From Candidatus Krumholzibacteriia bacterium (GTDB lineage: Bacteria; Krumholzibacteriota; Krumholzibacteriia; JAJRXK01): 37,454 bases of DNA. A program made the position numbers and the translations under genes. The stretch covers positions 1-37,454 of the forward strand of contig DATFKK010000085.1 of the NCBI GenBank assembly GCA_035268685.1, in the 5' to 3' direction. Shown one piece after another: positions 1-26,917 of the stretch (position 1 is its first letter; each line of letters opens with the position of its first letter). The notes below the pieces were generated by a model that was not told the DNA's origin, did no database searches, and saw only the letters and a program-made list of their open reading frames with translations.

Positions 1-1707
<1,707 letters not shown>

Positions 1708-1710
1708 GCC

Positions 1711-3222
<1,512 letters not shown>

Positions 3223-3268
3223 GGCTGGACTCCTTGTTCGAGCGGCCTCGAGTCGGATCGGGTTCGGA

Positions 3269-3820
3269 TCAGGTGGGGAGGGGGGCTCCCATGAGCTCCT
3301 TGCGCATCTCGTCGAAGGCGGTGCGGATGCTGCCGTCGATCACGCGATCGCCCACGACCGCGACGACACCCCCGACGACGCGCGCGTCGACACGCGGCTC
3401 GAGAATGCAGTCCAGACCGAGACTGACGTCGAGCGCGCGTTTGAGACGGTCGGCCATGTCCGGCGGCAGGGGGATGGCCGTAGTGACCCGCACCCGGACC
3501 TGGCCCCGGCGCTCCTCGACCAGGCGCTGGAACTCCTGGGCGATGTCGGCCAGGTGATCGATGCGATGCTTGTCGAGCAGCAACCGGAGGAAGTCACGCG
3601 TGGTCGGGTCGACCTTGTCGCCGAAGACCTTCTCGACGATCGCGTGCTTGTCGGCCTCGGCGATGCTCGGACCCTCGAGGAAGGTCTTCAGCCGAAGGTT
3701 GTCCGAGACCACCCCCGCGACCGCCGAGACGTTCTCGTGCACGGTCTCGAGCTGCCCCGGGTCGGCGATCGACGCGAGCAGGGCCTCGGCGTAGCGACTG
3801 GCGACGACCCGATCAGCCAC
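3269..3820 (-). CDS. atpH: F1Fo ATP synthase subunit delta
   Basis: This is the delta (OSCP-like) stator subunit that joins the top of F1 to the b-subunit stalk. The 183-residue protein opens with [13 protein letters not shown], a typical family N-terminus, and has the C-terminal signature [32 protein letters not shown]. The GTG start at 3820 sits inside the last codons of atpF, giving an 8-base overlap and likely translational coupling. The identification rests on the motifs and on its place between atpF and atpA. Confidence 0.95.
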
Positions 3821-4328
3821 GGACGTCTCCCAGGTCCTGGATGAAGTCCTCGACGATCTCGCGGTGCTTCGCCTCGTCGAGCTTCTCCTTGACCACCTTC
3901 TCGGCGGCGGCGAGGGCCATGGTCACGACCTGTTCGCGCAGCTCGAGACGAGCGGCCCCGACTTCGCGGTCGAGCTCGGCCTCGGCCCTGGTCATGAAGT
4001 CGCCGGCCTTGTCGCGGGCGTCCTGCTCCAGGCGCCCCGCGATCTCCTCGCCGCGCTTGACCGCTTCCTGCAGACGCTCGCGCTCGAGCGCCTTGATCTC
4101 GGCCAGCTTGGAGTCGTAGTCCTGCCGGAGCTGCTCCGCCTCGCCGAGCTTGGTCGCCGCGGCGTCGTATTCCGACTTGATCTTGTCGCGGCGCTGGTCG
4201 AGCACCGACATCATCGGGCCCCACGCGTACTTCGCGAGGACCCAGACCAGGATCAGGAACGCGATGACGTTCGTGACCAGGATCTTGCCGATGTCGACGA
4301 GCTCGAGGCCTTTGGTCAGAACTTCCAT
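3813..4328 (-). CDS. atpF: F1Fo ATP synthase subunit b
   Basis: This is the peripheral stalk subunit that anchors F1 to the membrane. In 171 residues it has one N-terminal membrane helix (about residues 15-37, LVTNVIAFLILVWVLAKYAWGP) in the usual place. A long charged helical region rich in E, K, R and A follows to the C-terminus, as expected for the b-subunit coiled coil. Only one b-type gene is present, so the stalk is probably a homodimer. It overlaps atpH by 8 bases. A structured 127-bp spacer separates it from atpE upstream. Confidence 0.96.
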   Translation of the reverse strand: MEVLTKGLELVDIGKILVTNVIAFLILVWVLAKYAWGPMMSVLDQRRDKIKSEYDAAATKLGEAEQLRQDYDSKLAEIKALERERLQEAVKRGEEIAGRLEQDARDKAGDFMTRAEAELDREVGAARLELREQVVTMALAAAEKVVKEKLDEAKHREIVEDFIQDLGDVRG

Positions 4329-4362
4329 CGGGACTCCCCGTTCGTTCCAGTGCGAGTCTTGG

Positions 4363-4421
4363 GTGACACGGTGCCCCTGTCACGCCGTTCGACGCCGGAC
4401 GGGGCCGGTCGTGTCCGACCG
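4363..4421 (-). promoter_or_regulatory. Two stem-loops in the atpE-atpF spacer
   Basis: Two inverted repeats lie in the 127-bp gap between atpE and atpF. One has arms GTGACA (4363-4368) and TGTCAC (4378-4383) with a 9-base loop. The other has arms CGGTCG (4406-4411) and CGACCG (4416-4421) with a 4-base loop. No T-run follows on either strand, so these look more like mRNA processing or stability elements than terminators. Function is inferred only from position in the operon. Confidence 0.35.
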
Positions 4422-4455
4422 ACCCCATCCGCAAGGGCAGAGAGGGCAGGAACGG

Positions 4456-4683
4456 CTAGGCGCCGACCTTGCCCTGCAGCACGAACGAAATGACCAGCGA
4501 GTAGATGGCGAGCGCCTCGATCAGCGCGCAACCGATGATCATGGCCGTCTGGATCTGGCCGATGGCCTCGGGCTGGCGGCCCATGGCATCCATGGCCGCA
4601 CTGATGGCCCGGCCGAGGCCGAGCGCGCAACCGAAAGCCGCGATCCCCAGACCGAGGGGAATGGCGAGTCCGAGAAGATCCAT
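4456..4683 (-). CDS. atpE: F1Fo ATP synthase subunit c
   Basis: This is the proteolipid that forms the rotor ring carrying ions through Fo. In 75 residues it has two hydrophobic helices joined by the polar loop GRQPEA (residues 35-40). The ion-binding carboxylate is Glu56 in IIGCALIEALAIYSLV. The positions that hold Gln and Ser in sodium-type rings are Leu23 and Ala57 here, so a proton ring is expected. The ATG at 4683 has a good AAGGAG. Spacers of more than 120 bp, both with inverted repeats, flank the gene, while most other atp genes nearly touch. This fits separate control of c-subunit dose. Confidence 0.97.
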   Translation of the reverse strand: MDLLGLAIPLGLGIAAFGCALGLGRAISAAMDAMGRQPEAIGQIQTAMIIGCALIEALAIYSLVISFVLQGKVGA

Positions 4684-4734
4684 GGTGACGTTCTCCTTGT
4701 CTTCTGCCCTTGATGGAGCCGGAGCTCCGTTGCC

Positions 4735-4751
4735 GACGGACGGCGTCCGTC
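4735..4751 (-). promoter_or_regulatory. Stem-loop in the atpB-atpE spacer
   Basis: A perfect 7-bp inverted repeat (GACGGAC at 4735-4741, GTCCGTC at 4745-4751) lies in the 123-bp gap between atpB and atpE, upstream of the atpE ribosome site. There is no T-run. It may protect or process the atpE message; this is inference. Confidence 0.3.
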
Positions 4752-4806
4752 CCGGATGTGGGGCCGTGACCCCTGGAGTGCGGGCCGCGCCCGCGGAAAA
4801 CCTTCG

Positions 4807-5757
4807 CTATGCGTGCGCTTCTTCTTCGTGCAACGGATCGTGTTCGTGGTCGTGCGGGAGCATCATGCTGATGTAGACGGTCGTGAGCAGCGCGAAGACC
4901 AGCGCCTGGATCAGCCCCAACAGCAGCGCCAGGAAGAAGAAGGGCAGGTGCAGCGGCAGGCCGACCCAGCCGTCGGTCGGCAATGCCGACAGCGAGACCA
5001 CGCCGAGCAGCGCGAACACGGCCAGGAGCATGTCCTTGCCGAAGATGTTCCCGAAGAGTCGAAGGCTCAGGCTGATCGGCTTGGCGAACTCACCGATGAG
5101 CTCGAGCACGAACATCAGCGGCGCGAGGATCCACCCCACCAGGTTGTTGGGCGCCCCCGCCAGGTGGTGGAGGTACCCGCCGATCCCCTGCCGCTTCAGA
5201 CCGGTGTACTGAACGTAGAGGAACACGCACAGCGCGATCGAGAAGTTGTTCAGGAAGACCGCCGATGGCGCCTTCCCGAGCGGGATGATTCCGGAGTAGT
5301 TCTGCACCAGCAGGTACACGAAGATGGTCGCGACGAAGGGGGCGTACTTCCGCCCGTACTTCTCGCCCATCATCGTGTTGGTGATGTTCAGGGTCTGCTC
5401 GACGAGGATCTCGAACAGGGCCTGCAGGCGGCCCGGAAGCTCGGAGCGGTTCTTGTACAGACGCCGTGCGACGAGGCTCAGGAACAACACGGCGAGGGCC
5501 GCGAAGAAGGGGGCCTCGAACATCTTCGAGTACTTGTAGAACTCGTAGGAGTCGGAGAACACCGTGTACCGCAGCACCTGGAAGAGGTGCGGGAGCATGT
5601 CGTAGTGCTCGAGGTGCTTCTCCTTGCCGTTGCTGTAGGTGCCGGCGGAGTGATGTTCACCGTCGTCGCCGCCCGCCCCCTCGGCCGCGATGGCGTCGGC
5701 CGGCACCATGGTGAGGACGAGGAGCGCGACCAGGGACAGGAGCAGGCGTCGGGTCAT
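4807..5757 (-). CDS. atpB: F1Fo ATP synthase subunit a
   Basis: This is the static Fo channel subunit that delivers protons to the c-ring. The essential arginine is visible in KPISLSLRLFGNIFGKDML. Five or so hydrophobic segments lie between residues 80 and 300, including VYLLVQNYSGIIPLG and a final ALVFALLTTVYISMML. At 316 residues it is longer than the roughly 240-270 of many homologues. The extra length is an N-terminal signal-peptide-like stretch (MTRRLLLSLVALLVLTMVPADAIA), a His-containing periplasmic segment (residues about 25-55), and a His/Glu-rich tail (HDHEHDPLHEEEAHA). It follows atpI by 3 bp. Confidence 0.96.
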   Translation of the reverse strand: MTRRLLLSLVALLVLTMVPADAIAAEGAGGDDGEHHSAGTYSNGKEKHLEHYDMLPHLFQVLRYTVFSDSYEFYKYSKMFEAPFFAALAVLFLSLVARRLYKNRSELPGRLQALFEILVEQTLNITNTMMGEKYGRKYAPFVATIFVYLLVQNYSGIIPLGKAPSAVFLNNFSIALCVFLYVQYTGLKRQGIGGYLHHLAGAPNNLVGWILAPLMFVLELIGEFAKPISLSLRLFGNIFGKDMLLAVFALLGVVSLSALPTDGWVGLPLHLPFFFLALLLGLIQALVFALLTTVYISMMLPHDHEHDPLHEEEAHA

Positions 5758-5760
5758 CGT

Positions 5761-6246
5761 TCAGCTCCGCGAATCGCTGGAGGTCGGCGAGGTGGGGGCG
5801 GTCGACGAGCGCGCGACGACATGGCCCAGCGCCTTGAGGAAGATCACGACCAGCGGGACCGAGAGCCCGGCGAGCACCGAGAACGGCGGGAAGTCGCCCA
5901 GGGCCAGGAGCGCGACCAGGCCTCCGTAGAGGATCGGCAGCTTGACGACGGCCACGACGGCGATCGTCACCGGGTCACGGCCGCCGGGACGGATCGCCGC
6001 CCGCAGCAGGCGCTCCAGCACCCAGAGGTTCGCCGCGCTCCACAGCCCGAACGCCGTGAAGCCCGCGGCCCACATGGGATCGACCGCGAACAACAGCAGC
6101 AGCCCGAAGAGCAGGGTCAGCCCGACATTCGCCTGGTGGACACGGCGCAGGAAGGCCTCGTCGAGCTCGACGGGTCCGTTCGGGCTGGGTGGCGAGTGAT
6201 GGGTGGGCATCGGGCGGGCAGAAGCTGCCACGTGGAGGTTCGACAT
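5761..6246 (-). CDS. atpI: ATP synthase subunit I-like membrane protein
   Basis: This is a 161-residue membrane protein with about four hydrophobic helices, arranged as two hairpins (about residues 40-75 and 92-142), after a Pro-rich soluble N-terminus. Its place directly upstream of atpB and the helix pattern match the ATP synthase I family, whose members help Fo or c-ring assembly in other bacteria. No catalytic motif is visible. The start codon touches the stop codon of the upstream small atpZ-like gene (zero gap), so the two are almost surely co-translated. The family call rests mostly on position and topology, since this family is poorly conserved in sequence. Confidence 0.75.
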   Translation of the reverse strand: MSNLHVAASARPMPTHHSPPSPNGPVELDEAFLRRVHQANVGLTLLFGLLLLFAVDPMWAAGFTAFGLWSAANLWVLERLLRAAIRPGGRDPVTIAVVAVVKLPILYGGLVALLALGDFPPFSVLAGLSVPLVVIFLKALGHVVARSSTAPTSPTSSDSRS

Positions 6247-6534
6247 TCAGGCGGATCCGCCGGGACGGCTCCGCCGGGACTTCCTGCGCTGCTCGTCGCG
6301 CAGCATCATGATCATCTTCCGGACACTCGCCGCGCCGCCCAGGACCAGACCGCCGAAGCTCAGCCAGGGGTCGTAGCCGTAACGCCCCTCGAGCCAGTCA
6401 CCAGCGAAGTAACCGCCGATGAGACCGACCGCGAGCATGGTGGGAATCGTGGTCGCGACCCCGATGTCCCGCGCCTGTCCGGCCCGTTTCCGGACCCAGT
6501 CGCTCGCTCGGTCTTCGGGGGATCGGTCCGCCAT
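6247..6534 (-). CDS. atpZ: AtpZ/AtpI-type F0F1 accessory membrane protein
   Basis: This is a 95-residue protein with two membrane helices (about 24-45 and 57-75) and a very basic C-terminus (KSRRSRPGG). The segment GGYFAGDWLEGRYG followed by a second Gly-rich helix is the pattern of the AtpZ family (putative F0F1-ATPase subunit), found as the first gene of many atp operons. The ATG at 6534 is chosen because the promoter at 6609-6636 lies upstream of it and a purine-rich GAAGGGG precedes it. The frame stays open much further upstream, but only across the promoter and the tRNA. It is the first gene of the operon. Confidence 0.8.
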   Translation of the reverse strand: MADRSPEDRASDWVRKRAGQARDIGVATTIPTMLAVGLIGGYFAGDWLEGRYGYDPWLSFGGLVLGGAASVRKMIMMLRDEQRRKSRRSRPGGSA

Positions 6535-6608
6535 CGGGCCCGCCCCTTCGCGCGCGGAACGCGCTCCCAGGGGTGCCTCGGCCACCTCTGCCCGCGAGTG
6601 ACCGAGCC

Positions 6609-6636
6609 AGTATAGTTGCACCAGGGGGGCCGTCAA
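6609..6636 (-). promoter_or_regulatory. Sigma-70-like promoter of the atp operon
   Basis: Read on the minus strand, TTGACG (6636-6631) and TATACT (6614-6609) are separated by 16 bases. This is the best -35/-10 pair in the window. The predicted start near 6602 gives a leader of about 68 bases before atpZ. Confidence 0.75.
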
Positions 6637-6726
6637 GGCGTTCCGGCGCTTTCGTTTTCGCCGGTCCGCACGCAGACCATCCGCATCGGACACGGGCCGC
6701 GCGCGCGGGGTGGCGGCGGTGGTGAA

Positions 6727-6800
6727 TGGCTGGCCCGGGAGGATTCGAACCCCCACAGCTGGGACCAAAACCCAGAGTCCTACCCTTAGACGACGGGCCA
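6727..6800 (-). tRNA. trnQ: tRNA-Gln (anticodon UUG), CCA encoded
   Basis: On the minus strand the RNA starts at 6800 with acceptor arm TGGCCCG, which pairs with CGGGCCA. The anticodon stem CTGGG/CCCAG encloses loop TTTTGGT, giving anticodon TTG, which reads CAA. The T-loop GGTTCGAATCC is canonical. The discriminator is G at 6730 and the 3' CCA is encoded (6729-6727). No other tRNA gene was seen nearby. Confidence 0.96.
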
Positions 6801-6812
6801 GCCCGTGGCTCC

Positions 6813-6821
6813 AAGCTAGCA
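6813..6821 (-). promoter_or_regulatory. Probable extended -10 of tRNA-Gln
   Basis: On the minus strand TGC-TAGCTT lies so that transcription would begin about 6-7 bases before the tRNA 5' end. No convincing -35 is present, which is common for extended -10 promoters. The dnaA promoter has the same TGC-TAG form. Confidence 0.45.
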
Positions 6822-6861
6822 CCGCCGGCGCGCGCCTGGCCAGCCCGGAGCCGGCCCGGCG

Positions 6862-8004: not shown

Positions 8005-8265
8005 ATGGCGGCACCGAAGAAGTGGGGCTACACGCGCGACAAGCAGATCGGCGACGAGATGCTCGTGGCCTGGTCCGACGGCGACCTGATCGAGGCCGTG
8101 GTCTTCGAGGTGAACGAACACCTGCTGCGCCACCGCGCGTCGCGGCGCATGGTCGCCGCGTGGGCGCGTGCGTCCGAGGACACGATGGAGCCCGTGGGCC
8201 GCGACTGGCTCATGGATCCTCCGAAGAGCCTGGTCACCCGCTGCAAGGAGATCGCCCGCCGCTGA
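8005..8265 (+). CDS. Small hypothetical protein downstream of the sigma-like gene
   Basis: This is an 86-residue soluble protein of mixed charge with a strong GGAGGAG ribosome site 8 bases before its ATG. It has no membrane segment and no Cys pair. Alternating hydrophobic residues in the first half (EMLVAWSDGDLIEAVVFEVNEHLL) suggest an alpha/beta fold. It follows the sigma-like gene by 18 bp, so the two probably form an operon and may work together. Its last 32 bases overlap the 3' end of bioF on the other strand. I recognise no family. Confidence 0.55.
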   Translation: MAAPKKWGYTRDKQIGDEMLVAWSDGDLIEAVVFEVNEHLLRHRASRRMVAAWARASEDTMEPVGRDWLMDPPKSLVTRCKEIARR

Positions 8266-9406
8266 TCGGTCGGTCCGCACGCCGTACGCGGGCGAAGGCC
8301 TCGAGGGCCCGGTCGATCTCCGCGTCACCCATCGACGCGGTCGGCGCGAGGCGCAGGCGGCAGGAGTCGCGGGGGACCGTCGGCGGACGGATCGCCGGAG
8401 CGGCCACGCCGAGTTTCCTCAGGCCGGCCGCCAGCGTGGTGGCCGCCGTGGCGCTCTCGACGACCACGGCCAGCATGGGCGCCGGCGAGGCACCCCACAC
8501 CACCCAACCCTGATCACGCAGCCCGTGGCGCAGACGGTCGAAGGATCGCTGCCGGCGCGCGCGCAACGGGTCGCCGCGGGCGAGCTCGATCGCCCGGCGA
8601 GCGGCGGCGGCCACCGGCAGGGCGAGGCCGGTGCTGTAGACGAACGACCGCGCCCGCTGGACCAGCCAGTCGATCAAGCCGTCGGGTCCGGCCACGAAGC
8701 CGCCCTGACAGCCCAGCGCCTTCGACAACGTGCCCATCTGGACGACCTCTCCGGCGTCGAGTTCGAAGTGCCGGACGGTTCCCGCGCCCTCGGGGCCGAG
8801 GACGCCGGTCGCGTGGGCGTCGTCGACGATCAGGGTGGCGTCGAACTCCCGGGCGACCGCGGCCAGGTCTGGCACGGGTGCGAGGACGCCGTCCATGCTG
8901 AAGACCCCGTCGGTGGCCACCCAGGCGCGGCCCGTGGGCCGGCGGCGGGCGAGCTGGCGGCGGAGGTGCTCGGGGTCGCCGTGGCGGTAGAATCGCAGTT
9001 CGGCCCGCGCCAACCGCGCGCCGTCGACCAGGCTGGCGTGGTCGAGACGGTCGCAGTAGATCACGTCTTCCGGTTCGCTGATCGACGTCAGCAGACCTAG
9101 ATTCGCCGCGTATCCGGAGGAGAACACCAGCGCCGCGTCGGTGCCCTTGAGCCGGGCGAGGTCGCGTTCGAGTTCGACGTGCACGGTGGCGTTGCCTCCG
9201 AGCAGGCGCGACGCACCCGATCCGACGCCGTCGTGGTCGAGCGCCTCGCGGGCTGCCGCGATCACGCGGGGATCACGGCGCAGACCCAGGTAGTCGTTGC
9301 TCGCGAAGTCGAGCACCGCGGAATCGGCCCGCGGGTCGGGCAGACGGCGGCGCAAGCCCCGCTGCTCCTCGGCGCGCAGCCGTTCGTCCCAGGTCCGTCG
9401 GTCCAT
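8234..9406 (-). CDS. bioF: 8-amino-7-oxononanoate synthase
   Basis: This PLP enzyme condenses pimeloyl-ACP (or -CoA) with L-alanine, the first ring-building step of biotin synthesis. The 390-residue protein has the usual length and alpha-oxoamine synthase motifs: LDFASNDYLGL, GVGSGASRLLGG, SSGYAANLG, stacking His123 in DRLDHASLVDG, DDAHATGVLG (Asp195, His198), and the Schiff-base Lys229 in GTLSKALG. The ATG at 9406 follows GGAGG. The frame continues open upstream only because it shadows the opposite-strand gene. It is divergent from the KAS III-bioABD operon with only 36 bp between starts. The related enzymes Kbl and HemA are less likely given the neighbours. Confidence 0.95.
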   Translation of the reverse strand: MDRRTWDERLRAEEQRGLRRRLPDPRADSAVLDFASNDYLGLRRDPRVIAAAREALDHDGVGSGASRLLGGNATVHVELERDLARLKGTDAALVFSSGYAANLGLLTSISEPEDVIYCDRLDHASLVDGARLARAELRFYRHGDPEHLRRQLARRRPTGRAWVATDGVFSMDGVLAPVPDLAAVAREFDATLIVDDAHATGVLGPEGAGTVRHFELDAGEVVQMGTLSKALGCQGGFVAGPDGLIDWLVQRARSFVYSTGLALPVAAAARRAIELARGDPLRARRQRSFDRLRHGLRDQGWVVWGASPAPMLAVVVESATAATTLAAGLRKLGVAAPAIRPPTVPRDSCRLRLAPTASMGDAEIDRALEAFARVRRADRPISGGRSPCSG

Positions 9407-9442
9407 CGTCCTCCGCCCTTCCCCCGGGGTGCAGCCGTCGGT

Positions 9443-10456
9443 ATGACCCTCGAAGCATTCATCGTCGGGACCGGCCACGCAAGTCCGGGCGTGACGGTGG
9501 AGAGCACGATCCTCGAAGCGGAGCTCGGCCTCGAGCCGGGTTGGATCGAGCGCCGGACCGGCATCCGGTCGCGCCGCGTGTGCTCCGCCGACCAGGCGTG
9601 TTCCGACCTCGCGATCGAGGCGGGGATCGCCGCGCTGGACGACGCGGGGCTGGATCCGTCGACGGTCGGCCTCGTGGTCCTCGCCACGAGCACCCCCGAT
9701 CACCTGCTCCCGCCCACCGCCCCCCGCGTCGCGGCCGGGATCGGGGCGCCCGGTGCGGGCGGTTTCGACCTCGCCGGCGCCTGTGCCGGATTCGTCTACG
9801 CCCTGGGCGTCGGGGCCGGGTGGACCGCGGCGTTCGGGGCCCCCGTGCTGGTCGTCGCCTCGAACGTGTTGAGCCGGCGGCTCGACCCTGCCGATGCCGG
9901 GTCGCGGGCCGTGTTCGCGGACGGCGCCGGCGCGGTCGTCCTCGCCCCCGAACGGTCGGCGCGCCCGGCCGCCCGGATCCGTGCGCTGCGCGTCGGCTCG
10001 GACGCCCGCCACGCCGACGCGATCCGCGTGGTCGCCGGCGGCAGCGTCCACCCCTTCGACGCCGACGCGCTGCGCGAGGGGCTGCACTTCCTGCGCATCG
10101 AACGGGGTTCGGTGGTGTTCCAGGAAGCCGTCCGCGGTATGGTGCGCGCCTCCCGGGCGGCGCTCGACGACGCCGGGTGCACGATCCATGATCTCGACGC
10201 CTGGATCCCCCACCAGGCGAACCGCCGGATCCTCGACCGCGCCGGAAACGAGCTGGGCCTCGACTCCGCGCGACGCGTCGACATCCTGCCCACCTGGGGG
10301 AACAGTTCGGCCGCGAGCATCCCGACCGCTCTCTCGCTGCACCGTCGGACCACGCCGCGCCCGGGGACCGTACTGCTGAGTGCAGTCGGCGCCGGCCTGT
10401 TGGAGGCGGCCGCGGTGGTGGAGTGGGACCGGGACGACGAGGAGCGACACCCGTGA
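9443..10456 (+). CDS. bioZ: Beta-ketoacyl-ACP synthase III, probable BioZ
   Basis: This thiolase-fold enzyme is the first gene of the biotin operon. It has the full KAS III triad: Cys114 in DLAGACAGF, His257 in WIPHQANRR and Asn287 in TWGNSSAA, with the spacing of FabH. Length is 337 residues. BioZ proteins of some alphaproteobacteria are KAS III relatives that extend glutaryl-CoA with malonyl-ACP to start pimeloyl-ACP synthesis. The fused position with bioA (GTGA overlap) and the absence of bioC and bioH here point to that role. Ordinary FabH cannot be ruled out from sequence alone. The ATG at 9443 is fixed by the FabH-like N-terminus AFIVGTGHASPG; its ribosome site is weak. Confidence 0.75.
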   Translation: MTLEAFIVGTGHASPGVTVESTILEAELGLEPGWIERRTGIRSRRVCSADQACSDLAIEAGIAALDDAGLDPSTVGLVVLATSTPDHLLPPTAPRVAAGIGAPGAGGFDLAGACAGFVYALGVGAGWTAAFGAPVLVVASNVLSRRLDPADAGSRAVFADGAGAVVLAPERSARPAARIRALRVGSDARHADAIRVVAGGSVHPFDADALREGLHFLRIERGSVVFQEAVRGMVRASRAALDDAGCTIHDLDAWIPHQANRRILDRAGNELGLDSARRVDILPTWGNSSAASIPTALSLHRRTTPRPGTVLLSAVGAGLLEAAAVVEWDRDDEERHP

Positions 10457-11856
10457 GCACTTCCGATCCCCTCTTCGGCTTCGAGCCCGAAGACGTGCGG
10501 CGCTTCGATCACGAGTACGTGTGGCATCCCTTCACGCCGATGGACGACTACGTGGCCGCGTCACCGCCGGTGATCGTCGGGGGTGAGGGCCGGAGACTGC
10601 AGGACACCGAGGGTCGCTGGTACTGGGACGGCTCGAGTTCGATCTGGCTGAACGTGCACGGCCACCGCGACCCCGACCTCGACGCGTCGATCCGCGAGCA
10701 GCTCGATCGGATCGCCCACTCCACGCTCCTCGGCGCGGGCAACGTTCCCGCCTCGGTGCTCGCGAAACGCCTGGTGGACGTCACGCCCGAAGGACTCGAG
10801 CGCGTGTTCTTCTCCGACAGCGGGGCCACGGCGGTGGAGATCGCGTTGAAGGCGGCGATCCAGTTCTTCGCCAACCAGGGCCGTGCCGAGAAGCGCCACG
10901 TGGTGGGCTTCACCGATAACTACCACGGCGACACGATCGGGGCGATGTCGGTGGCGCCCGACCCGGTGTTCCACTGGCCCTTCCTGTCGATGCTCCCGGA
11001 GCAACCGCGCGTGGCGTATCCCTACTGGTTCGGCCACCCGAGCGGCGCGACGAATCCCGAGGAGTGCCGGCGCGCGACGCTCGACGAACTGACCGCGCTG
11101 CTCGAGCGCGACGGCGAGCGCATCGCGGCGGTGATCATCGAACCCGTCGAGGGGGCGGGCGGGATCCGGCCGGCGCCGGAAGGATTCCTGCGCGACCTGC
11201 GTTCGCTGTGCGACCGCCACGACGTGCTGATGATCGTCGACGAGGTGGCGACGGGGTTCGGCAAGACCGGCCGCATGTTCGCCTGCGACGCCGAGGGCGT
11301 CACACCCGACCTGATGTGCCTGGGCAAGGGACTCACCGGCGGCTACCTGCCGGTGGCCGCGACGTTGGCCACCGGTCGCGTGTACGACGCTTTCCTCGGT
11401 GAACGACGGCGCGCCCTCTACCACGGCCACAGCTTCACCGGCAACCAGCTCGGCTGCGCCGTGGCCCTGGCGAGCCTCGAGAAGATGCCGGCGGTGATGG
11501 ACGCGCTGCCACCGAAGATCGATCGCGTGTGGTCGCGGTTGGCCGCGCTGCGCGACCTGCCCTGCGTGGGCGACGTCCGCGGGCGCGGGCTCATGGTCGG
11601 CGTCGAACTCGTGGCCGACCGCGACGATCCGCGGCCACTGCCGTCGGACTGGCGCGCGGGCTACGCCGTCACCGACCACGCGCGCGACCTCGGGCTGATC
11701 GTCCGCCCGATCGGCAACGTGGTGATCTTCATGCCGCCGCCGTCGAGCACGCTCGAGGAGCTCGACGCGATGCTCGACGCGCTCGTGCGTGCCTTCGAGG
11801 ACGTCACGCCACGCATCGCCGAGCGCGTGGAGCGCGAGAGCCGGGGGCGGGCGTGA
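10453..11856 (+). CDS. bioA: Adenosylmethionine-8-amino-7-oxononanoate aminotransferase
   Basis: This PLP aminotransferase uses S-adenosylmethionine as amino donor to make 7,8-diaminopelargonic acid. The 467 residues show the DAPA aminotransferase pattern: HPFTPM near the N-terminus, SDSGATAVEIALK (about 121-133), the aromatic FTDNYHGDTIGAMSV, IVDEVATGFGKTG (Asp263 binding the PLP ring) and the Schiff-base Lys292 in CLGKGLTGGYLP. YHGHSFTGNQLGCA closes the site. The GTG start overlaps the stop of the KAS III gene as GTGA, with GAGGAG upstream. It likewise overlaps bioD by GTGA at its end, so the operon is tightly coupled. Confidence 0.96.
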   Translation: MSTSDPLFGFEPEDVRRFDHEYVWHPFTPMDDYVAASPPVIVGGEGRRLQDTEGRWYWDGSSSIWLNVHGHRDPDLDASIREQLDRIAHSTLLGAGNVPASVLAKRLVDVTPEGLERVFFSDSGATAVEIALKAAIQFFANQGRAEKRHVVGFTDNYHGDTIGAMSVAPDPVFHWPFLSMLPEQPRVAYPYWFGHPSGATNPEECRRATLDELTALLERDGERIAAVIIEPVEGAGGIRPAPEGFLRDLRSLCDRHDVLMIVDEVATGFGKTGRMFACDAEGVTPDLMCLGKGLTGGYLPVAATLATGRVYDAFLGERRRALYHGHSFTGNQLGCAVALASLEKMPAVMDALPPKIDRVWSRLAALRDLPCVGDVRGRGLMVGVELVADRDDPRPLPSDWRAGYAVTDHARDLGLIVRPIGNVVIFMPPPSSTLEELDAMLDALVRAFEDVTPRIAERVERESRGRA

Positions 11857-12599
11857 GCGGCGGTCTGCTCGTCACGGGCACCGACACCGGCGTGGGCAAG
11901 ACCTTCGTCGCCGCGGGCATCGCCCGCGCGTGGCGCGACGCGGGCATCGAGGTGGGCGTGATGAAGCCCGCCGAGACCGGACACGACCCCCGGGTCGCCG
12001 GTCCCTGGCCGGCCGACGCCCGAACACTGGCCCTGGCCTCGCGGACGGTGGACGCGCTCGAAGCCGTGGTTCCCTACACCTTCGTCGACCCCGTCGCCCC
12101 GCTGGTCGGCGCGCGCCGCGAGGGCCGCGTGATCGAGACCGAGCGCATCGCCGACGCCTTCACCCGCATCGTCGCCCGCCACGACGTGGTGGTGGTGGAG
12201 GGGGCCGGAGGCCTCTCGGTGCCCATCGCCGAATTCGGACACGATGATCACTTGTTCGATCACACGGATCTGTCCACACTGCTCGGACTCCCCCTGCTGA
12301 TCGTGGCCCGCGCCCATCTCGGAACGCTCAATCACACCTTCCTCACCGTGCGCTACGCGCGCGAGCGCGCCATCACGGTGATCGGTGTGGTATTGAACGG
12401 GCGGGACCCGAGGGCCGACGACCCGTCGGTCGCCGACAACGCGGCCATGATCGAGGAGATGTGCGAGGTCCCCGTGCTCGGGACGATCGACCGGATCGAA
12501 GGTCTGGTCGACGTCGACGTCATGGCGCGGGCCTGCCGCGAGTCGATCGATCTCGACCGCATCCACGACCTGTCGATGGTGCAAGGAGACACCGTATGA
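11853..12599 (+). CDS. bioD: Dethiobiotin synthetase
   Basis: This ATP-dependent enzyme carboxylates diaminopelargonate and closes the ureido ring. In 248 residues it has the P-loop GTDTGVGKT (residues 9-17), the family Lys/Glu segment VMKPAETG, and EGAGGLSVPI, which binds substrate and Mg. C-terminal GVVLNGRDP and PVLGTID are also typical. GTG start at 11853, overlapping the bioA stop; the end overlaps bioB as ATGA. The insertion GHDDHLFDHTDLS in the middle is slightly longer than in enterobacterial forms. Confidence 0.96.
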   Translation: MSGGLLVTGTDTGVGKTFVAAGIARAWRDAGIEVGVMKPAETGHDPRVAGPWPADARTLALASRTVDALEAVVPYTFVDPVAPLVGARREGRVIETERIADAFTRIVARHDVVVVEGAGGLSVPIAEFGHDDHLFDHTDLSTLLGLPLLIVARAHLGTLNHTFLTVRYARERAITVIGVVLNGRDPRADDPSVADNAAMIEEMCEVPVLGTIDRIEGLVDVDVMARACRESIDLDRIHDLSMVQGDTV

Positions 12600-13615
12600 A
12601 CCCTCCGACCTCCGCGGCCGCCGCGCCGACGACCTCGAAGTGGAACGCCCTGGCCGACCGCGTGCTCGCGGGCCAGGCGATCGAACCGGACGAGGCCCGG
12701 TCGATCCTCGACGCCCCCGACGTCGAGCTGCTCGACCTGTTGGCCGCGGCGTATCGCATCCGCCACCACCACTACGGCAACAAGGTCAAGCTCAACTACC
12801 TGGTGAACGCCAAGAGCGGCCTGTGCCCGGAGGACTGCACCTACTGCTCGCAGAGCAAGGACTCGACGGCCGAGATCCATCAGTACCGGCTGATGTCGCA
12901 GGAGCAGATCGTCGAGAAGGCCGACCACGCGGCGAAGATGCACGCGGGAACGTGTTGCATCGTGATCAGCGCCAAGGGACCGAGTGATCGCGAGGTCGAC
13001 CACGTGGCCGGTGCGATCCAGGAGATCCGCCAGCGCCATCCCGACATGAAGCTGTGCGCGTGCCTTGGCATCCTGAAGGACGGACAGGCCGAACGGCTCG
13101 CCGACGCCGGGGCCGATCGCTACAACCACAACCTGAACACGGCCGAGACCCACTACGAGGACATCTGCTCGACCCACTCCTACGCCGATCGTCTGGCCAC
13201 CGTGGAGTCGAGCAAGAAGGCGGGGATCTCTCCGTGCAGCGGCGTGATCATCGGCATGGGGGAGACGCGCGACCAGGTGGTCGAGAGCTCCTACGCCCTG
13301 CGCGACCTCGACGTCGACTCGATCCCCGTGAACTTCCTGATCGCGATCGAGGGAACGCCGCTGGCCGAGCAGCCGCTCGAACCTCTCGACCCGCGCTACT
13401 GTCTCAAGGTGCTGTGCATGTACCGCTTCGTGAATCCGACCAAGGAGCTGCGCGTGTCCGCCGGCCGCGAGGTGCACCTGCGACACATGCAGCCCATGGC
13501 CCTGTACGCGGCCAACGCGATGTTCCTGGCCGACTACCTCACCGAGCCCGGACAGGCGCCGGACCTCGACGAGCAGATGGTCGAGGACCTCGGATTCGAG
13601 TGGGAAACTCCCTGA
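12596..13615 (+). CDS. bioB: Biotin synthase
   Basis: This radical SAM enzyme inserts sulfur into dethiobiotin, the last step of biotin synthesis. The 4Fe-4S cluster motif is C77-PED-C81-TY-C84, followed by SQSK. Further conserved segments are CCIVISAKGP, YNHNLNTAETHY, GVIIGMGET and RVSAGREV. Those include the Cys and Arg ligands of the 2Fe-2S cluster. Length is 339 residues. The ATG overlaps the bioD stop and has AAGGAG at 12583-12588. It is the last gene of the operon; no clear terminator follows. Confidence 0.97.
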   Translation: MNPPTSAAAAPTTSKWNALADRVLAGQAIEPDEARSILDAPDVELLDLLAAAYRIRHHHYGNKVKLNYLVNAKSGLCPEDCTYCSQSKDSTAEIHQYRLMSQEQIVEKADHAAKMHAGTCCIVISAKGPSDREVDHVAGAIQEIRQRHPDMKLCACLGILKDGQAERLADAGADRYNHNLNTAETHYEDICSTHSYADRLATVESSKKAGISPCSGVIIGMGETRDQVVESSYALRDLDVDSIPVNFLIAIEGTPLAEQPLEPLDPRYCLKVLCMYRFVNPTKELRVSAGREVHLRHMQPMALYAANAMFLADYLTEPGQAPDLDEQMVEDLGFEWETP

Positions 13616-19073: not shown

Positions 19074-19988
19074 TCACAGCTGACTCGAGATCCCCAGAGA
19101 CTCCAGAATCCGCTCGAGCTCCTCGTCGGAGAAGAACTCGATGTTGATCCGGCCCCTGTTGCCCCGGCGGGTGATCTGACACGGGCTGCCGAGGTGGCGG
19201 AAGAGTCGCGTCTCGAACTCCCGGAGGGCCCGGGCCTCGGGATCACGCGCGGGCTCCTGGTCCGGGGCAGGCTCCGATCGCTGCGGCGCCTGGAGGTCCT
19301 GGATCTTCTTCTCGAGCGCGCGGACGCTCAGCCCGTGCTTCGCGACGGTCCGGGCCAGGCTCAGGCGCTGCGAGCCGTCGTCGAGGCGGAGGAGGGCACG
19401 CGCATGACCCATGGTCAGCCCTCCCTCGACCACGAGGTTCCGGATCGTCTGTTCGAGGTTCAGCAGGCGGAGCATGTTGCTGACGCCACTCCGGCTCTTG
19501 CCGAGCATGTCGGCGAGCTCCTGATGCGTGGCACCGAGGTGCTCCATGATCGAGCGATAGGCCTCGGCCTCTTCGATGGCATTCAAGTCCTCACGCTGGA
19601 TGTTCTCCAGAAGTGCCACCTTCATGCTCTCGGTTTCGGCGATTGAGCAGACGATCGCCGGAACCTCTTGCAATCCAGCGATTTCAGCGGCTCGCACCCG
19701 GCGCTCGCCCGCGATCAGCTCGTAGGAATCGCCCCTCCGGCGCACCAGGACCGGCTGTAGGACGCCGTTGGACCGAATCGACTGGGCGAGCTCGTGGAGC
19801 TGCTCTTCGGCAATGCTTTTCCGAGGCTGGTGCGGATTCATGCTCAGGTCCGCAATGCGGAGGATCCGCGCCTCTCGGTCGCCGAGGGCGGTCGCGCCGT
19901 CGCCGTTGGACCCCGCCGGTCGGTCCTCCGGGGTCGAGTCTCCCAGGAGAGCCCCCAGGCCCCTACCCAACGCACGCTTGCTCGTCAT
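19074..19988 (-). CDS. parB: Chromosome partitioning protein ParB
   Basis: This centromere-binding CTP switch spreads from parS and works with ParA to segregate the origin. The 304-residue protein starts with the ParA-contact motif RALGRGLGALLG. NPHQPRKSIAEEQLHELAQSI and GERRVRAAE (CTP-binding) follow. LLENIQREDLNAIEEAEAY and the helix-turn-helix ELADMLGKSRSGVSNMLRLL come next, then a C-terminal dimer domain (about 240-304). The ATG at 19988 has an excellent AAGGAGG. It overlaps the end of parA by 26 bases. Two parS sites lie upstream. Confidence 0.97.
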   Translation of the reverse strand: MTSKRALGRGLGALLGDSTPEDRPAGSNGDGATALGDREARILRIADLSMNPHQPRKSIAEEQLHELAQSIRSNGVLQPVLVRRRGDSYELIAGERRVRAAEIAGLQEVPAIVCSIAETESMKVALLENIQREDLNAIEEAEAYRSIMEHLGATHQELADMLGKSRSGVSNMLRLLNLEQTIRNLVVEGGLTMGHARALLRLDDGSQRLSLARTVAKHGLSVRALEKKIQDLQAPQRSEPAPDQEPARDPEARALREFETRLFRHLGSPCQITRRGNRGRINIEFFSDEELERILESLGISSQL

Positions 19989-20742
19989 GGGCGATCACCT
20001 CCTTGGCGAGTTCCAGGTAGCTCTGGGCACCGCGGCTCTGGACGTCATGGAGCAGGACGGGCTTTCCGAAGCTGGGACTCTCGCCGAGGGTCACGTTCCG
20101 CGGGATCACGGTGGTGTAGACCGCATCTCCGAAGTACTCACGTGCCTCGTCCGAGACCTGCTGGCTCAGCCGCAGGCGCCGGTCGAACATGGTGAGCAGG
20201 ACCCCTTCGATGCGGAGGGCAGGATTCATGGACCTCTGCACCAGTCGGATCGTGTTCAGCAGTTGGGACAGGCCCTCCAGGGCGTAGTACTCGCACTGGA
20301 TCGGGATGAGCACGGAGGCGGACGCGGTCAGGGCGTTGACCGTGAGCAATCCAAGGCTTGGGGGCGTGTCGATCAGGACATAGTCGTAGCTCTCGGCCAC
20401 CGACCCGAGTGCTCGCTCGAGGAAGCGCTCGCGACCCTCGGCGTCCACGAGCTCGATCTCCGCGCCCGAGAGACGCTGATCGGTGGGGAGCGCGTCGAGG
20501 AAAGGAAGCTCGGTCTTCCGTATTCCCTCGGCCGCAGCCGTCTGGCCGAGGAGGACCTCGTAGCTCGTGGTTTCCAGGTCGCTCTTCTGGATCCCGAGTC
20601 CGCTCGTCGCGTTCCCCTGGGGATCGAAGTCCACCAGGAGGACGCGCTTCTCGGCCACCGCCAGGGAGGCCGCGAGGTTGACGGCAGTGGTCGTCTTCCC
20701 GACCCCGCCCTTCTGATTCGATACGGCAATGATCCGACCCAT
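19963..20742 (-). CDS. parA: Chromosome partitioning ATPase ParA (Soj)
   Basis: This Walker ATPase drives ParB-parS segregation and in some bacteria also controls DnaA. The 259-residue protein has the deviant Walker A KGGVGKTTT (about 11-19), the VDFDPQGNATSG Walker A' and IDTPPSLGLLT. It has the short N-terminus of chromosomal Soj-type proteins and no helix-turn-helix. The ATG at 20742 has GGAGG; the frame extends upstream through intergenic DNA containing a parS, so the upstream part is not coding. It is the first gene of parAB on the minus strand. Confidence 0.97.
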   Translation of the reverse strand: MGRIIAVSNQKGGVGKTTTAVNLAASLAVAEKRVLLVDFDPQGNATSGLGIQKSDLETTSYEVLLGQTAAAEGIRKTELPFLDALPTDQRLSGAEIELVDAEGRERFLERALGSVAESYDYVLIDTPPSLGLLTVNALTASASVLIPIQCEYYALEGLSQLLNTIRLVQRSMNPALRIEGVLLTMFDRRLRLSQQVSDEAREYFGDAVYTTVIPRNVTLGESPSFGKPVLLHDVQSRGAQSYLELAKEVIAHDEQACVG

Positions 20743-20991
20743 CGTGCCTCCGGAGTCTCGAGGTGGGTACGGTCGTGGTTCTCGCAGGGCAGGCGGAGAT
20801 TGGGTCCTTCGGAGCCGGCGCGCAAGATCGTGTCTGTCGTCACATGGGGAGCAGATGGGGAAAACCGCCGAAAGGTTCGTAGCGACAGTGAGTTGACCTG
20901 GGGGAAAGTTCTCGGGCGGCTGCGCCGTTTCACGTGAAACCGCACGGCCCCGGCACGCTCTGCTGTTCAGCCGTGGGCACAACTCCTGGTT
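20743..20991 (-). promoter_or_regulatory. rsmG-parA intergenic region
   Basis: The 249-bp gap in front of parA carries one full parS (20926-20941) and abuts a second (20988-21003). It also holds one GGGGAAAAC element at 20857-20865 and a GGGGGAAAG at about 20901. I see no convincing -35/-10 pair. ParB bound to these sites could repress parAB. Confidence 0.45.
20926..20941. promoter_or_regulatory. parS: parS site 1
   Basis: The core GTTTCACGTGAAAC (20927-20940) is a perfect palindrome and matches the inner 14 bases of the bacterial parS consensus TGTTTCACGTGAAACA. Only the outermost bases differ. It lies between rsmG and parA, next to the parAB genes. Confidence 0.9.
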
Positions 20992-21003
20992 TCACGTGGA
21001 ACA
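20988..21003. promoter_or_regulatory. parS: parS site 2, overlapping the rsmG stop
   Basis: GGTTTCACGTGGAACA matches the parS consensus TGTTNCACGTGNAACA at all but the first base. It contains the rsmG stop codon, so the last rsmG codons are part of the centromere site. Its centre is 62 bp from that of site 1. Confidence 0.88.
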
Positions 21004-21696
21004 CGCGTCGGTGCGCCGAAGCACATAGACCCACCGGTCGCCCGCCCGGGCGTCTTCCAGGACATTCCAGCCCCGCTCCACCTCCCATGGCCCGTGGGAG
21101 TCCCACGACCAACCATGGCGCTGGAAGGTCACGACGCGTCCTTCGTCCGACAGCAGCGGGGTGACCCAACCCAGGAACTGCTCGATGTGGGCCACGGCCT
21201 TCGCCGTTGCCCAGGAGAACGGATCCGCGTTGAGCGTGCGGACGTCGCCGAAATGGGCCCGCGCCTTGTCCAGACCCAACCTCAGGACTTCTCGTTCGAG
21301 GAAGTCGCTTCGCGTTCGTCGGCGCTCGGACAGGACGATCTCCGTGTCCGGAAACGCGCAAGCCCAGACGATCCCAGGAAAGCCGCCCCCGGATCCGACG
21401 TCGAGGACACGATCCTCCGGCCCAAGGCCGAGCTCGAGGCCCGCACGGAGACTCTCCTCCATGAGTCGGGCCACCTCGGTCTTGGGATCGAGGCGCGAAA
21501 CCAGGTTCTCCACCGGATTGAACCGGAGAAGATCCTCCCGGTACGCCTGAAGTCGTTCCACGGTCCGCGGCGAGAGGCGCCGCTCGAGATCAGTAGGTAG
21601 TTGTAAATGCGGACTTTTCAGTTCCTCAATTCTCCGCTTTGTGAATGACGATGTGCTTCGCCGCCCCTTCACCGAGGGAATAGGTCTCCAGCCCAT
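20992..21696 (-). CDS. rsmG: 16S rRNA (guanine-527-N7) methyltransferase
   Basis: This Rossmann-fold enzyme transfers methyl from SAM to G527 of 16S rRNA; loss gives low-level streptomycin resistance in other bacteria. The conserved parts are NPVENLVSRLDP, the SAM loop VLDVGSGGGFPGIVWA, and LSERRRTRSDFLER. The start is uncertain. ATG 21696 gives 234 residues and overlaps jag by 71 bases but has no spaced ribosome site; GTG 21672 (226 residues) is the alternative. Either way the N-terminus is read inside jag. The stop lies within parS site 2. mnmE and mnmG, often found beside it, are absent here. Confidence 0.93.
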   Translation of the reverse strand: MGWRPIPSVKGRRSTSSFTKRRIEELKSPHLQLPTDLERRLSPRTVERLQAYREDLLRFNPVENLVSRLDPKTEVARLMEESLRAGLELGLGPEDRVLDVGSGGGFPGIVWACAFPDTEIVLSERRRTRSDFLEREVLRLGLDKARAHFGDVRTLNADPFSWATAKAVAHIEQFLGWVTPLLSDEGRVVTFQRHGWSWDSHGPWEVERGWNVLEDARAGDRWVYVLRRTDACST

Positions 21697-22225
21697 CCAT
21701 CTCCTGGACCGTCACGTGGATCACGCGCCGATCCCGGGCGTTCATCGGTCGCAGGTGCTCGTCCTCTCCCGATTCCGCCACACGACCCGCGAGTTCCCGC
21801 GCCAGCTCCCGGAGTTCGGCCTCGTGCTTCGCCCGGTACTGATTCACATCGACCTGGACCGGCACCATGTGCCCGACCTCGTGGCTGGCCATCCGCCCGA
21901 TGAGAACCTCGAGCGCCTCGATCCCCGAGCCGCGCTTGCCGATCAGGACGCCGGCGTGCTTCGAATCGACCTCGATCCACACCCGCTGATAGTCCTCGTG
22001 CAGGAACTCGATGTCCGCGTCGATGTCCGCGGCCTCGAGCAGGTCCTCGGTGGCCTCGACCACCGCGGCATCGTCCTCGGGCGACGGTTCGTACGCCGGG
22101 CGCTCGCGAGCGCGCGACGGCGCCACGTCCTCCAGCGAAACGCTGGGCGTGGGGGTCTCGTCGATCACGATCTCCGGTTTGGGGATCGTGCGCTCGTATC
22201 GTTTCCGGGTCCGTCGAGATCGCAT
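21626..22225 (-). CDS. jag: RNA-binding protein KhpB/Jag
   Basis: This is a KH-R3H RNA-binding protein that in other bacteria pairs with KhpA and affects cell division or envelope genes. The 199-residue product lacks the Jag-N domain; the first 60 residues are a disordered, Pro-rich segment. Residues about 75-125 carry a KH domain with the GKRGSGIEALEVLIGR loop. Residues about 135-199 carry R3H (NARDRRVIHVTVQEM, then TYSLGEGAAKHIVI). The ATG at 22225 has AGAGGA. It follows yidC by 51 bp and overlaps rsmG. Confidence 0.93.
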   Translation of the reverse strand: MRSRRTRKRYERTIPKPEIVIDETPTPSVSLEDVAPSRARERPAYEPSPEDDAAVVEATEDLLEAADIDADIEFLHEDYQRVWIEVDSKHAGVLIGKRGSGIEALEVLIGRMASHEVGHMVPVQVDVNQYRAKHEAELRELARELAGRVAESGEDEHLRPMNARDRRVIHVTVQEMDGLETYSLGEGAAKHIVIHKAEN

Positions 22226-22276
22226 GGATTCTTCCTCTCCGCTTCGGTCGTCTTCCCGCAGTCCGCGGGCAGGGTG

Positions 22277-24094
22277 CTAGGAGGCACTCGCCTCGGCCGG
22301 CTGGGGCGCGGTCTTCGAGATGCGCCAGGTCTGGTACGCGGACAGGCCCGTGTTCACGAGCCAGTACAGCACGAGCCCGGCGGGGCTCTGGTAGAACACG
22401 AAGAACAGCATGAGCGGCATGAAGGTCGTCATCATCCGCATCTGCTTGGCCATGGGATTGTCGGCCTGGCCCGCCGTCGTGGTCTGCTGGAACTTCGTCT
22501 GCGCGTACATCCCCAGTGCCATCAGGAAGGGCAGCAACGAGAAGTACTCGCCCAGGAACGGGAGCGCGAAGGGCAGCTCGAACAGCGCATCGGGACGACT
22601 GAGGTCGTCGATCCACAACGCGAACTCAGCCTGCCGCAGATCGATGGTCTTGCGCAGGATGGTGAACAGTGCCCAGAACACCGGCATCTGCACCAGCAAC
22701 GGGAGACAGCCGCCCATGTTCAGTGGATTGACACCGTGCTCCTTGTACAGCGCCATCATCTCCTTGCTCTGGCGCTGCGGGTCGTCCTTGTACTTCTCCT
22801 GCATCTTCTTCATCTTCGGCTGCATTTCCTGCATCCGGCGCATGCTCATGACGCTGCTCTTGGTCAGCGGCCAGAACAGCAGCTTCGTGAAGACGCTGAA
22901 CAGGATGATGGTCCAACCCCAGTTGGGCACGATTCCGTGGAGGAGACGCAGGCCGATGAGCACGGTCTCGGCGATCCACCGGAAGACTCCCGGGCCGAGA
23001 TCGACGAGGGCCGTGAGGTTCGCGTTCCACGGGTCGCTGTCGTAGCGCGCCAGGACGTCGTTGTCGACCGGTCCCATGTAGACGGTGTAGTCCACGGTCG
23101 CCGGTTCCCGCCCTTCCAGCCCGAGCGCGGCGCGGAAGGTCTGTACTCCGCGGTCGTGGTCGCCGTCGAGCCGGACCTCGCCGAGCTTCGGATCGGGAGA
23201 GATGACGGTGGTGAGGAAGTACAGCGACTCCACACCGCTCCAGCTCACGCTGCCCTCGTAGATGCGCCGTCCGTCGTTGCCGTCGCCCTTCAGCTTGCCG
23301 TAGCCGACCTTGTGGATGTCGTCGCCGACCCGCGCCACGGCCTTGAACTCGCGGATCTCCCGGGCGCTGTCGGGCTCGGTGGTCGCGATCCCGCCCGGCC
23401 AGCCGACCTCCCACCGCGTCGGAAGCGTCTCCCCGCGGCCGGGGACCACACGCGCCGAAACGTCGAAACCGTAGCGGTCGGGATGGAAGCGGTAGACGAT
23501 CTCGACGCCCCCACCGTTGCCGCGCTGCGCAGTCAGGACGAGGTCGGCCGGTGCGTCGTCGGCGGCCAGGGCAATGCTGCTCCGTTGAGCGTCGAACTGC
23601 ACCTGCCGCAGATCGAGCGCGCGGTCCTCGAGCAGGATCCGCAGTGCGTGCGCCCGCTGCGACTGGGGATCGAGCGTGCGCTCGCCGATCAGATCCACCG
23701 GCGAGCCGTCGACCAGGTCGAACTCACGCAGTTTCCACGAGACGATGTCGCCCCCGACGCGGTCGATCTGTGCTTCGAACAGCGGGGTGCTGACCTGGAC
23801 CAGCGAGCCGCGATCGGTGTCCGCCACTCGGGTCCACTCCCTGGCCTCGGCCGGCGGTACCACGGCACGTTCGGTGTCCGGGATGGCGGGCGCGGTGTCC
23901 CCGAAGGTCGGCGGCCGGTCAGTGGTCGGCTCTGGCGGTCGCTCCGCGCTCTGCTCGGTCGCGGTCGTCTCGGTGTCCTCGGCCGGCGGGGGTGTCTCCG
24001 ACGGGAAGAGGGCGAACCACCCGATCCAGACCACCGCCATCAGGGCGAAGGCCAGGATCGTACGGCTGTCGAAGGGTTGCTGGTTTCCCTGCAC
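22277..24094 (-). CDS. yidC: Membrane protein insertase YidC
   Basis: YidC inserts proteins, including ATP synthase c and a subunits, into the inner membrane. The 605-residue Gram-negative-type protein has TM1 (ILAFALMAVVWIGWFALF, about 13-30), a low-complexity linker (about 32-80) and a large periplasmic beta-domain (about 85-370). The conserved core comes next: SVMSMRRMQEMQPKMKKMQEKY, GVNPLNMGGCLPLLVQMPVFWALF, and late helices ending near WLVNTGLSAYQTWRI. The GTG start at 24094 lies 4 bp after the yidD stop, with a weak GGGAA. The large periplasmic domain implies a two-membrane cell. Confidence 0.97.
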   Translation of the reverse strand: MQGNQQPFDSRTILAFALMAVVWIGWFALFPSETPPPAEDTETTATEQSAERPPEPTTDRPPTFGDTAPAIPDTERAVVPPAEAREWTRVADTDRGSLVQVSTPLFEAQIDRVGGDIVSWKLREFDLVDGSPVDLIGERTLDPQSQRAHALRILLEDRALDLRQVQFDAQRSSIALAADDAPADLVLTAQRGNGGGVEIVYRFHPDRYGFDVSARVVPGRGETLPTRWEVGWPGGIATTEPDSAREIREFKAVARVGDDIHKVGYGKLKGDGNDGRRIYEGSVSWSGVESLYFLTTVISPDPKLGEVRLDGDHDRGVQTFRAALGLEGREPATVDYTVYMGPVDNDVLARYDSDPWNANLTALVDLGPGVFRWIAETVLIGLRLLHGIVPNWGWTIILFSVFTKLLFWPLTKSSVMSMRRMQEMQPKMKKMQEKYKDDPQRQSKEMMALYKEHGVNPLNMGGCLPLLVQMPVFWALFTILRKTIDLRQAEFALWIDDLSRPDALFELPFALPFLGEYFSLLPFLMALGMYAQTKFQQTTTAGQADNPMAKQMRMMTTFMPLMLFFVFYQSPAGLVLYWLVNTGLSAYQTWRISKTAPQPAEASAS

Positions 24095-24098
24095 GATG

Positions 24099-24395
24099 TC
24101 AGTTCCCGGAGGCCGAGCGTGGACCGCGCGCCTCGGTTGGGGTCAACGGAGGCCTCTTGGAGCCCTCCGACGGGACCGGATCCAAGCCGCCCTCGTGGAA
24201 CGGATGGCAGCGGAAGACCCGCCGCAGCCCGAGCGCCGCGCCACGCCACGCCCCGAAGCGCCGGATGGCGGTTTCGGTGTAGTGCGAACACGTGGGCGTG
24301 TACCGGCAATTCGATCCCAGAAAGGGCGAGATCGTCGCTCGGTACAGTTGGATCAGGAACACGGCCCCTCGGGCGGCCCAGGACGTCCACGTCAT
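24099..24395 (-). CDS. yidD: Membrane protein insertion efficiency factor YidD
   Basis: YidD is a small amphipathic protein that helps YidC insertion. The 98-residue product has LYRATISPFLGSNCRYTPTCSHYTETAI with Cys30 and Cys36, then RVFRCHPFHEGGLDPVP, all family hallmarks. The tail after residue 75 is Pro/Ser-rich and not conserved. The ATG overlaps the rnpA stop by 4 bases. Order rpmH-rnpA-yidD-yidC-jag is conserved across many phyla. Confidence 0.96.
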   Translation of the reverse strand: MTWTSWAARGAVFLIQLYRATISPFLGSNCRYTPTCSHYTETAIRRFGAWRGAALGLRRVFRCHPFHEGGLDPVPSEGSKRPPLTPTEARGPRSASGN

Positions 24396-24769: not shown

Positions 24770-24830
24770 CCGGACTCCCGCGCCCGACGCTCCTCCGCGA
24801 ACGACCGTGGGCGCACGCCGGATCGGATCG

Positions 24831-24965: not shown

Positions 24966-25043
24966 GGTCCGACCTCGTCGCTGTGCGCGTCTGCGCGAAC
25001 TCCGGGTGAAACGGGCGGACAGCGCCGCCGGATCAGCCGGGAA

Positions 25044-26875: not shown

Positions 26876-26917
26876 CGCTTCCTCCGTCTTCGTGGCCTCG
26901 CTTCCACGGAGCAGCCG

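Follow-up and report, generated by a model that had tools for sequence, protein, structure and literature searches.

A BioZ-type KAS III heads a biotin operon in one genus of the Krumholzibacteriota

Contig DATFKK010000085.1 of assembly GCA_035268685.1, a stretch of 37,454 nucleotides (nt) from a Candidatus Krumholzibacteriia bacterium analysed here as a whole and called the window, carries a biotin cluster at positions 8234-13615. In this cluster, bioF on the minus strand is followed by a divergent KAS III-bioA-bioD-bioB set on the plus strand (9443-13615). Identification of the KAS III protein as BioZ rather than FabH is well supported by its sequence, its phylogeny, its pocket residues and its genomic context. 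A sequence-only reading of the region had described a KAS III gene cotranscribed with bioA, bioD and bioB, endowed with a complete Cys-His-Asn triad and accompanied by neither bioC nor bioH, and had proposed a lysine-linked BioZ route to the pimeloyl precursor, extending outside proteobacteria. The observation is confirmed and the interpretation is partly supported, the BioZ route at its core having good support from the tree, the pocket residues, the operon and the FabHs encoded elsewhere. Each of the three outcomes by which that reading would have been refuted was looked for: the protein does not fall with FabH, further fabH genes are present, and neither a BioC nor a BioH exceeds its curated cut-off. 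The best explanation as a whole, to which a probability of roughly 0.88 is given, is that of a true BioZ using glutaryl-CoA derived from 2-oxoadipate and encoded in an operon restricted to one genus among the sampled genomes of the phylum.

Searched with phmmer against PDB sequences, the window KAS III has Agrobacterium BioZ as its three best distinct matches (240-245 bits), followed by a FabH at 164 bits. With the fabH model TIGR00747 it reaches 221 bits, below the cut-off of 292, and its top model is PRK05963, with which the FabHs of the same genome score 238 and 270 bits. A maximum-likelihood tree was built from 73 KAS III rows, two rows of the window's own genome (contigs C157 and C136) being left out. 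In this tree, the window protein pairs at 100/98 with its relative from a second species of the genus (genome G008), and this pair forms with all 15 alphaproteobacterial BioZ a 17-row clade supported at 100/100, outside which both FabHs of the genome fall. Forcing the pair to join four FabHs of its family, a grouping chosen once the tree had been seen, lowers the log-likelihood by 102.8 and is rejected (p-AU 7e-7). Without the window pair, the BioZ rows form a weak clade (62/7), so that the pair may branch inside or beside the alphaproteobacterial BioZ. The AlphaFold model of the protein (mean pLDDT 82, pTM 0.85) retrieves with Foldseek the BioZ structures 6kue, 9w96 and 9j6e at the top (E 1e-40 to 2e-38, 43% identity) and FabHs lower, 6kue being the closest structure (TM 0.87). 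Pocket residues lie in or next to two loops, 87-89 and 144-148, where pLDDT drops below 50, so that the model bears on the fold and not on the geometry of the pocket.

The catalytic triad is complete (C114, H257, N287). In addition, S83, R146 and S289 of the window protein are the equivalents of S84, R147 and S287 of the Agrobacterium enzyme AtBioZ, so that all three residues of the glutaryl pocket are kept. These AtBioZ residues are proposed to neutralise the free carboxylate; the S84A and S287A variants are reported to support growth poorly, and R147A to leave partial activity (PMC8024396). In an alignment of 75 rows, from which the residue table was drawn, S84 and R147 (AtBioZ numbering, also used below) are both present in the window protein and in 15 of 15 BioZ rows. 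Among the 58 non-BioZ KAS III rows, S84 occurs in three, R147 in none and the pair in none, while S287, found in 43 of them, is less diagnostic. R147 was likewise missing wherever it was read elsewhere: in 29 loci of the phylum, in seven more proteins from it and in the remaining four KAS III of the genome. Considering the columns fixed in BioZ and shared by less than 10% of the other rows, the window protein keeps 15 of 19. The S84/R147 pair offers a clear means of separating BioZ from FabH in unannotated genomes.

The genome holds five KAS III loci. Two of them, on contigs C64 and C197, encode the separate FabHs, which pass the fabH cut-off with 353 and 367 bits for 292 needed. Another KAS III-like protein (L003, G000:C157:111-1088) retains the Cys and has T, Y and G in place of the catalytic His, the catalytic Asn and the pocket Ser; it is devoid of the decarboxylation residues.

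In the proposed pathway, the cysteine of BioZ would take the glutaryl group from glutaryl-CoA, and the S84/R147/S287-type pocket would hold this group at the bottom of the tunnel. Condensation with malonyl-acyl carrier protein (ACP) would then yield 3-oxopimeloyl-ACP, which the normal fatty-acid cycle would reduce to pimeloyl-ACP before its conversion into biotin by BioF, BioA, BioD and BioB. As for the primer, Agrobacterium is reported to derive it from lysine by way of glutarate and CaiB, the latter being required for its biotin synthesis, and 2-oxoadipate, too, is reported to support biotin formation by its resting cells (PMC7645780). No CaiB-family CoA-transferase (family III, PF02515) was found in either of the two genomes of the genus, 5 of 14 controls being positive, which points to 2-oxoadipate as the probable origin of glutaryl-CoA. 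The lysine link advanced by the sequence-only reading thus does not hold in its Agrobacterium CaiB form, and a supply through saccharopine and 2-oxoadipate fits better. Lysine would be converted through saccharopine and 2-aminoadipate semialdehyde into 2-oxoadipate and then, without CaiB, into glutaryl-CoA, the last step being catalyzed by a 2-oxoglutarate/2-oxoadipate dehydrogenase.

Gene content makes this supply probable. Since the NCBIfam scan assigned no model to the saccharopine dehydrogenases (SDH) and returned for lysine-ketoglutarate reductase (LKR) an alanine dehydrogenase trace only, both were identified through PDB searches. SDH-type proteins are found in both genus genomes, that of the window's genome reaching 216 bits with a solved SDH. 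The LKR of G008 scores 240 bits with a solved aminoadipic semialdehyde synthase; its homologue in the window's genome (45% identity) is encoded on the same contig as the SDH, and both genes adjoin in G008. Each genome also encodes one E1 component of 2-oxoglutarate-dehydrogenase type above the cut-off, as well as a glutaryl-CoA dehydrogenase (GCDH). The window genome's GCDH scores 441 bits with a solved GCDH and 239 with the best non-GCDH, and is 77% identical to that of G008. The phylum sample consists of 80 genomes, all of one class; completeness reaches 90% or more with contamination of 5% or less in 46 of them, and a gene counted as absent may in some cases have been missed because the assembly is incomplete. 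In this sample, GCDH (E 1e-100 or better) occurs in 50 of 80 genomes and in four of four of the family, so that the supply would have a broader distribution than the biotin operon and would probably predate it. Two side observations concern the same pathway: each genus genome encodes a second protein with an SDH C-domain (L168, G000:C34; L170, 8542-9696), and an unassigned class I aminotransferase is encoded on the same contig as saccharopine-pathway genes.

Several observations, beginning with the missing CaiB, weigh against the proposed explanation. The window protein scores 336 bits with PRK05963 for a cut-off of 437, a naming threshold rather than a biological definition, when two alphaproteobacterial BioZ reach 495 and 558. 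Two of the four basic residues proposed to form the ACP face are altered (R153 to A and R221 to S), R39 and R260 being kept, and E152 is replaced by D; among the 15 BioZ rows themselves, two vary at position 153 and three at position 221. The bioZ of G008 ends at a contig edge and lacks the pocket part, so that its R147 cannot be seen. The genome contains sub-threshold BioC-like (10) and BioH-like (7) proteins, methyltransferases and hydrolases, which could be divergent BioC or BioH. Finally, the saccharopine gene check covered LKR, SDH, E1 and GCDH, so that the aminoadipate-semialdehyde dehydrogenase, the 2-aminoadipate aminotransferase and the use of 2-oxoadipate by the E1 are presumed in this route.

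The alternative that survives best disputes the supply step only, and its share of probability overlaps that of the explanation above. BioZ would work as proposed, with glutaryl-CoA arising from the breakdown of tryptophan or dicarboxylates or from a promiscuous acyl-CoA ligase. The occurrence of GCDH in 50 of the 80 genomes, which shows glutaryl-CoA metabolism not to be tied to biotin, and the two saccharopine-pathway steps outside the gene check leave room for such a source. However, LKR and SDH in both genus genomes, adjacent in G008, together with one E1 over the cut-off in each, argue for lysine, and the alternative is considered rather unlikely.

According to a second alternative, an enzyme of the BioZ clade would now use a different primer, a short acyl or dicarboxylyl group, and its product would not be pimeloyl-ACP or would offer BioF a different chain. 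The substitutions at positions 152, 153 and 221, the score under the PRK05963 cut-off and the missing CaiB are compatible with such a shift. On the other side stand the conserved triad with all three proposed carboxylate-binding residues, the coupling of the KAS III gene to a full set of ring-forming genes, and the presence of GCDH, which makes glutaryl-CoA a likely metabolite. A changed primer thus appears improbable.

Other pimelate routes were also considered. The biotin cluster itself contains neither bioC nor bioH. In the window's genome no BioC exceeds the curated cut-off of 184.95 bits, the best of 10 weak matches reaching 78 under a strict threshold passed by 1 of 14 controls. Neither genus genome holds a BioH over the curated cut-off of 206.95 bits, the best match scoring 58 and 1 of 14 controls passing, and BioW was found in none of the 80 phylum genomes. 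A BioC/BioH or BioW route therefore has nothing above the cut-offs; BioI was not searched for. A misread FabH was rejected on the PDB scores, the tree, the topology test, the pocket residues and the separate FabHs. A housekeeping or accessory FabH lodged in the biotin operon, with a divergent BioC/BioH pair elsewhere making pimeloyl-ACP, would fit the KAS III fold, the passing of the broad KAS III model PRK09352 (256 bits, cut-off 249) and the weak BioC-like and BioH-like proteins, but is most improbable of all given the 100/100 grouping with BioZ, the rejected FabH placement, the BioZ-only S84/R147 pair, the two FabHs encoded elsewhere, and the two best BioC-like proteins, which, judged by eye, look like a generic small methyltransferase and an arsenite methyltransferase.

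A BioZ fed with glutaryl-CoA from 2-oxoadipate is thus retained, and its distribution is narrow. A BioB over the cut-off occurs in two of the 80 phylum genomes, namely that of the window and G008 (382 bits), the next best match scoring 103. G008 carries bioZ-bioA-bioD-bioB in the same order, with identities to the window of 48% for bioZ (over 172 amino acids), 65% for bioA, 53% for bioD and 69% for bioB. The same order in a second species indicates that the cluster is not due to chance and that bioZ is kept with the ring genes in both species. The neighbours differ, no ATP synthase genes adjoining the operon of G008, and its position is therefore not conserved. That operon (L095, G008:C55) lies next to a fragment of a P-type ATPase and to a calcium-repeat protein whose C-terminal domain, as judged by eye, is of the NPFNP type. 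In the other phylum genomes, no protein comes near the BioZ score (next 187 bits, self 741).

The absence of a biotin synthase over the cut-off from 78 of the 80 genomes suggests that biotin dependence is widespread in the phylum. Restriction of the pathway to one genus among the sampled genomes may be explained by the probable gain of the operon by a lineage whose relatives already handle glutaryl-CoA. A single entry of biotin synthesis into the phylum, in one genus and as a BioZ operon workable because glutaryl-CoA was already formed and consumed in lineages of the family, with saccharopine feeding a second, CaiB-free supply, is a scenario as easily doubted as accepted. Among 55 related loci from named genomes, a set that may leave out records close to the window's genome, the 12 best are all from Hyphomicrobiales, and in 11 of them bioA directly precedes the KAS III gene. 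Recent transfer of a whole rhizobial operon is not supported, given the different gene order and identities of about 28-41% between ring genes; a transfer of bioZ by itself, or one from a donor outside the sample, is possible.

The window corresponds to one contig (G000:C85) of an assembly of 4.59 Mb in 202 contigs, estimated as 99.3% complete. Each of the five coding sequences is an exact frame with one stop (Table 1). A gap of 36 nt separates bioF from the divergent KAS III gene. At the three plus-strand junctions, KAS III/bioA, bioA/bioD and bioD/bioB, stop and start codons overlap by 4 nt (GTGA/ATGA), and co-transcription of the four genes, as the sequence-only reading had it, is therefore very likely. 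The model-scan queries began one codon past the start for bioA and two codons upstream for bioB, which does not affect naming. No exact BioR-type site and no BirA half-site was found within the window. The cluster is flanked (window 1-6822 and 19074-34527) by ATP synthase genes on one side and, on the other, by a chromosome-origin-type block read by eye as parA/parB, rsmG, yidC, rnpA, dnaA, dnaN, recF, gyrB and gyrA.

Table 1. Genes of the biotin cluster and the basis of their assignment (window coordinates; aa, amino acids)
Gene	Predicted product	Position	Strand	Basis
bioF		8234-9406	minus	best NCBIfam model TIGR00858 bioF, 392 bits, under cut-off 426
bioZ	KAS III-type 3-oxopimeloyl-ACP synthase, 337 aa	9443-10456	plus	phmmer against PDB, tree, residue table, AlphaFold model
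bioA	adenosylmethionine-8-amino-7-oxononanoate transaminase, 467 aa, GTG start	10453-11856	plus	TIGR00508, 472 bits, cut-off 405
bioD	dethiobiotin synthase, 248 aa, GTG start	11853-12599	plus	TIGR00347, 156 bits, cut-off 83
bioB	biotin synthase, 339 aa, ATG start	12596-13615	plus	TIGR00433, 383 bits, cut-off 225

The BioC-BioH and BioI-BioW routes feed the same BioF-A-D-B steps as BioZ and differ from the present case by enzymes (BioC, BioH, BioW) that were not found here at curated thresholds. FabH shares the fold and the triad of the window protein, whereas those of E. coli and of the window's own genome are 31-34% identical to it, have no R147 and belong to a separate clade. With the alphaproteobacterial BioZ of Agrobacterium, Mesorhizobium and others, the window protein has in common the KAS III fold, the triad, the S84/R147/S287 pocket and the location in a biotin cluster, next to a separate FabH and with no BioC, BioH or BioW at the thresholds used. 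It is, however, 44-48% identical to them, and the operon, bioB-F-D-A-Z in alphaproteobacteria, is arranged here as bioF<- ->bioZ-A-D-B, with bioA, bioB, bioD and bioF about 28-41% identical, no exact BioR-type site in the window and no CaiB in the genome.

Outside proteobacteria, the bioZ genes of Rhodothermus marinus and Marinithermus hydrothermalis are reported to stand in for bioC and for bioH in E. coli mutants (PMC7645780). These BioZ are of different lineages and are likened to the present one by description. As they precede the window's BioZ, occurrence outside proteobacteria, as proposed by the sequence-only reading, stands for this lineage and fails as a novelty. No description of BioZ from a candidate or unnamed phylum was found in titles and abstracts of the open-licence PMC papers that the searches listed. 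The window's BioZ would extend the reach of the route to a phylum where no biotin synthase passes the cut-off in the 78 other sampled genomes. The case also suggests that a lineage in which an intermediate of catabolism is at hand can gain a vitamin pathway built on it, and that the BioZ route does not in general require CaiB. Compared with the systems known so far, the window BioZ is a new branch of a known route and not a new route.

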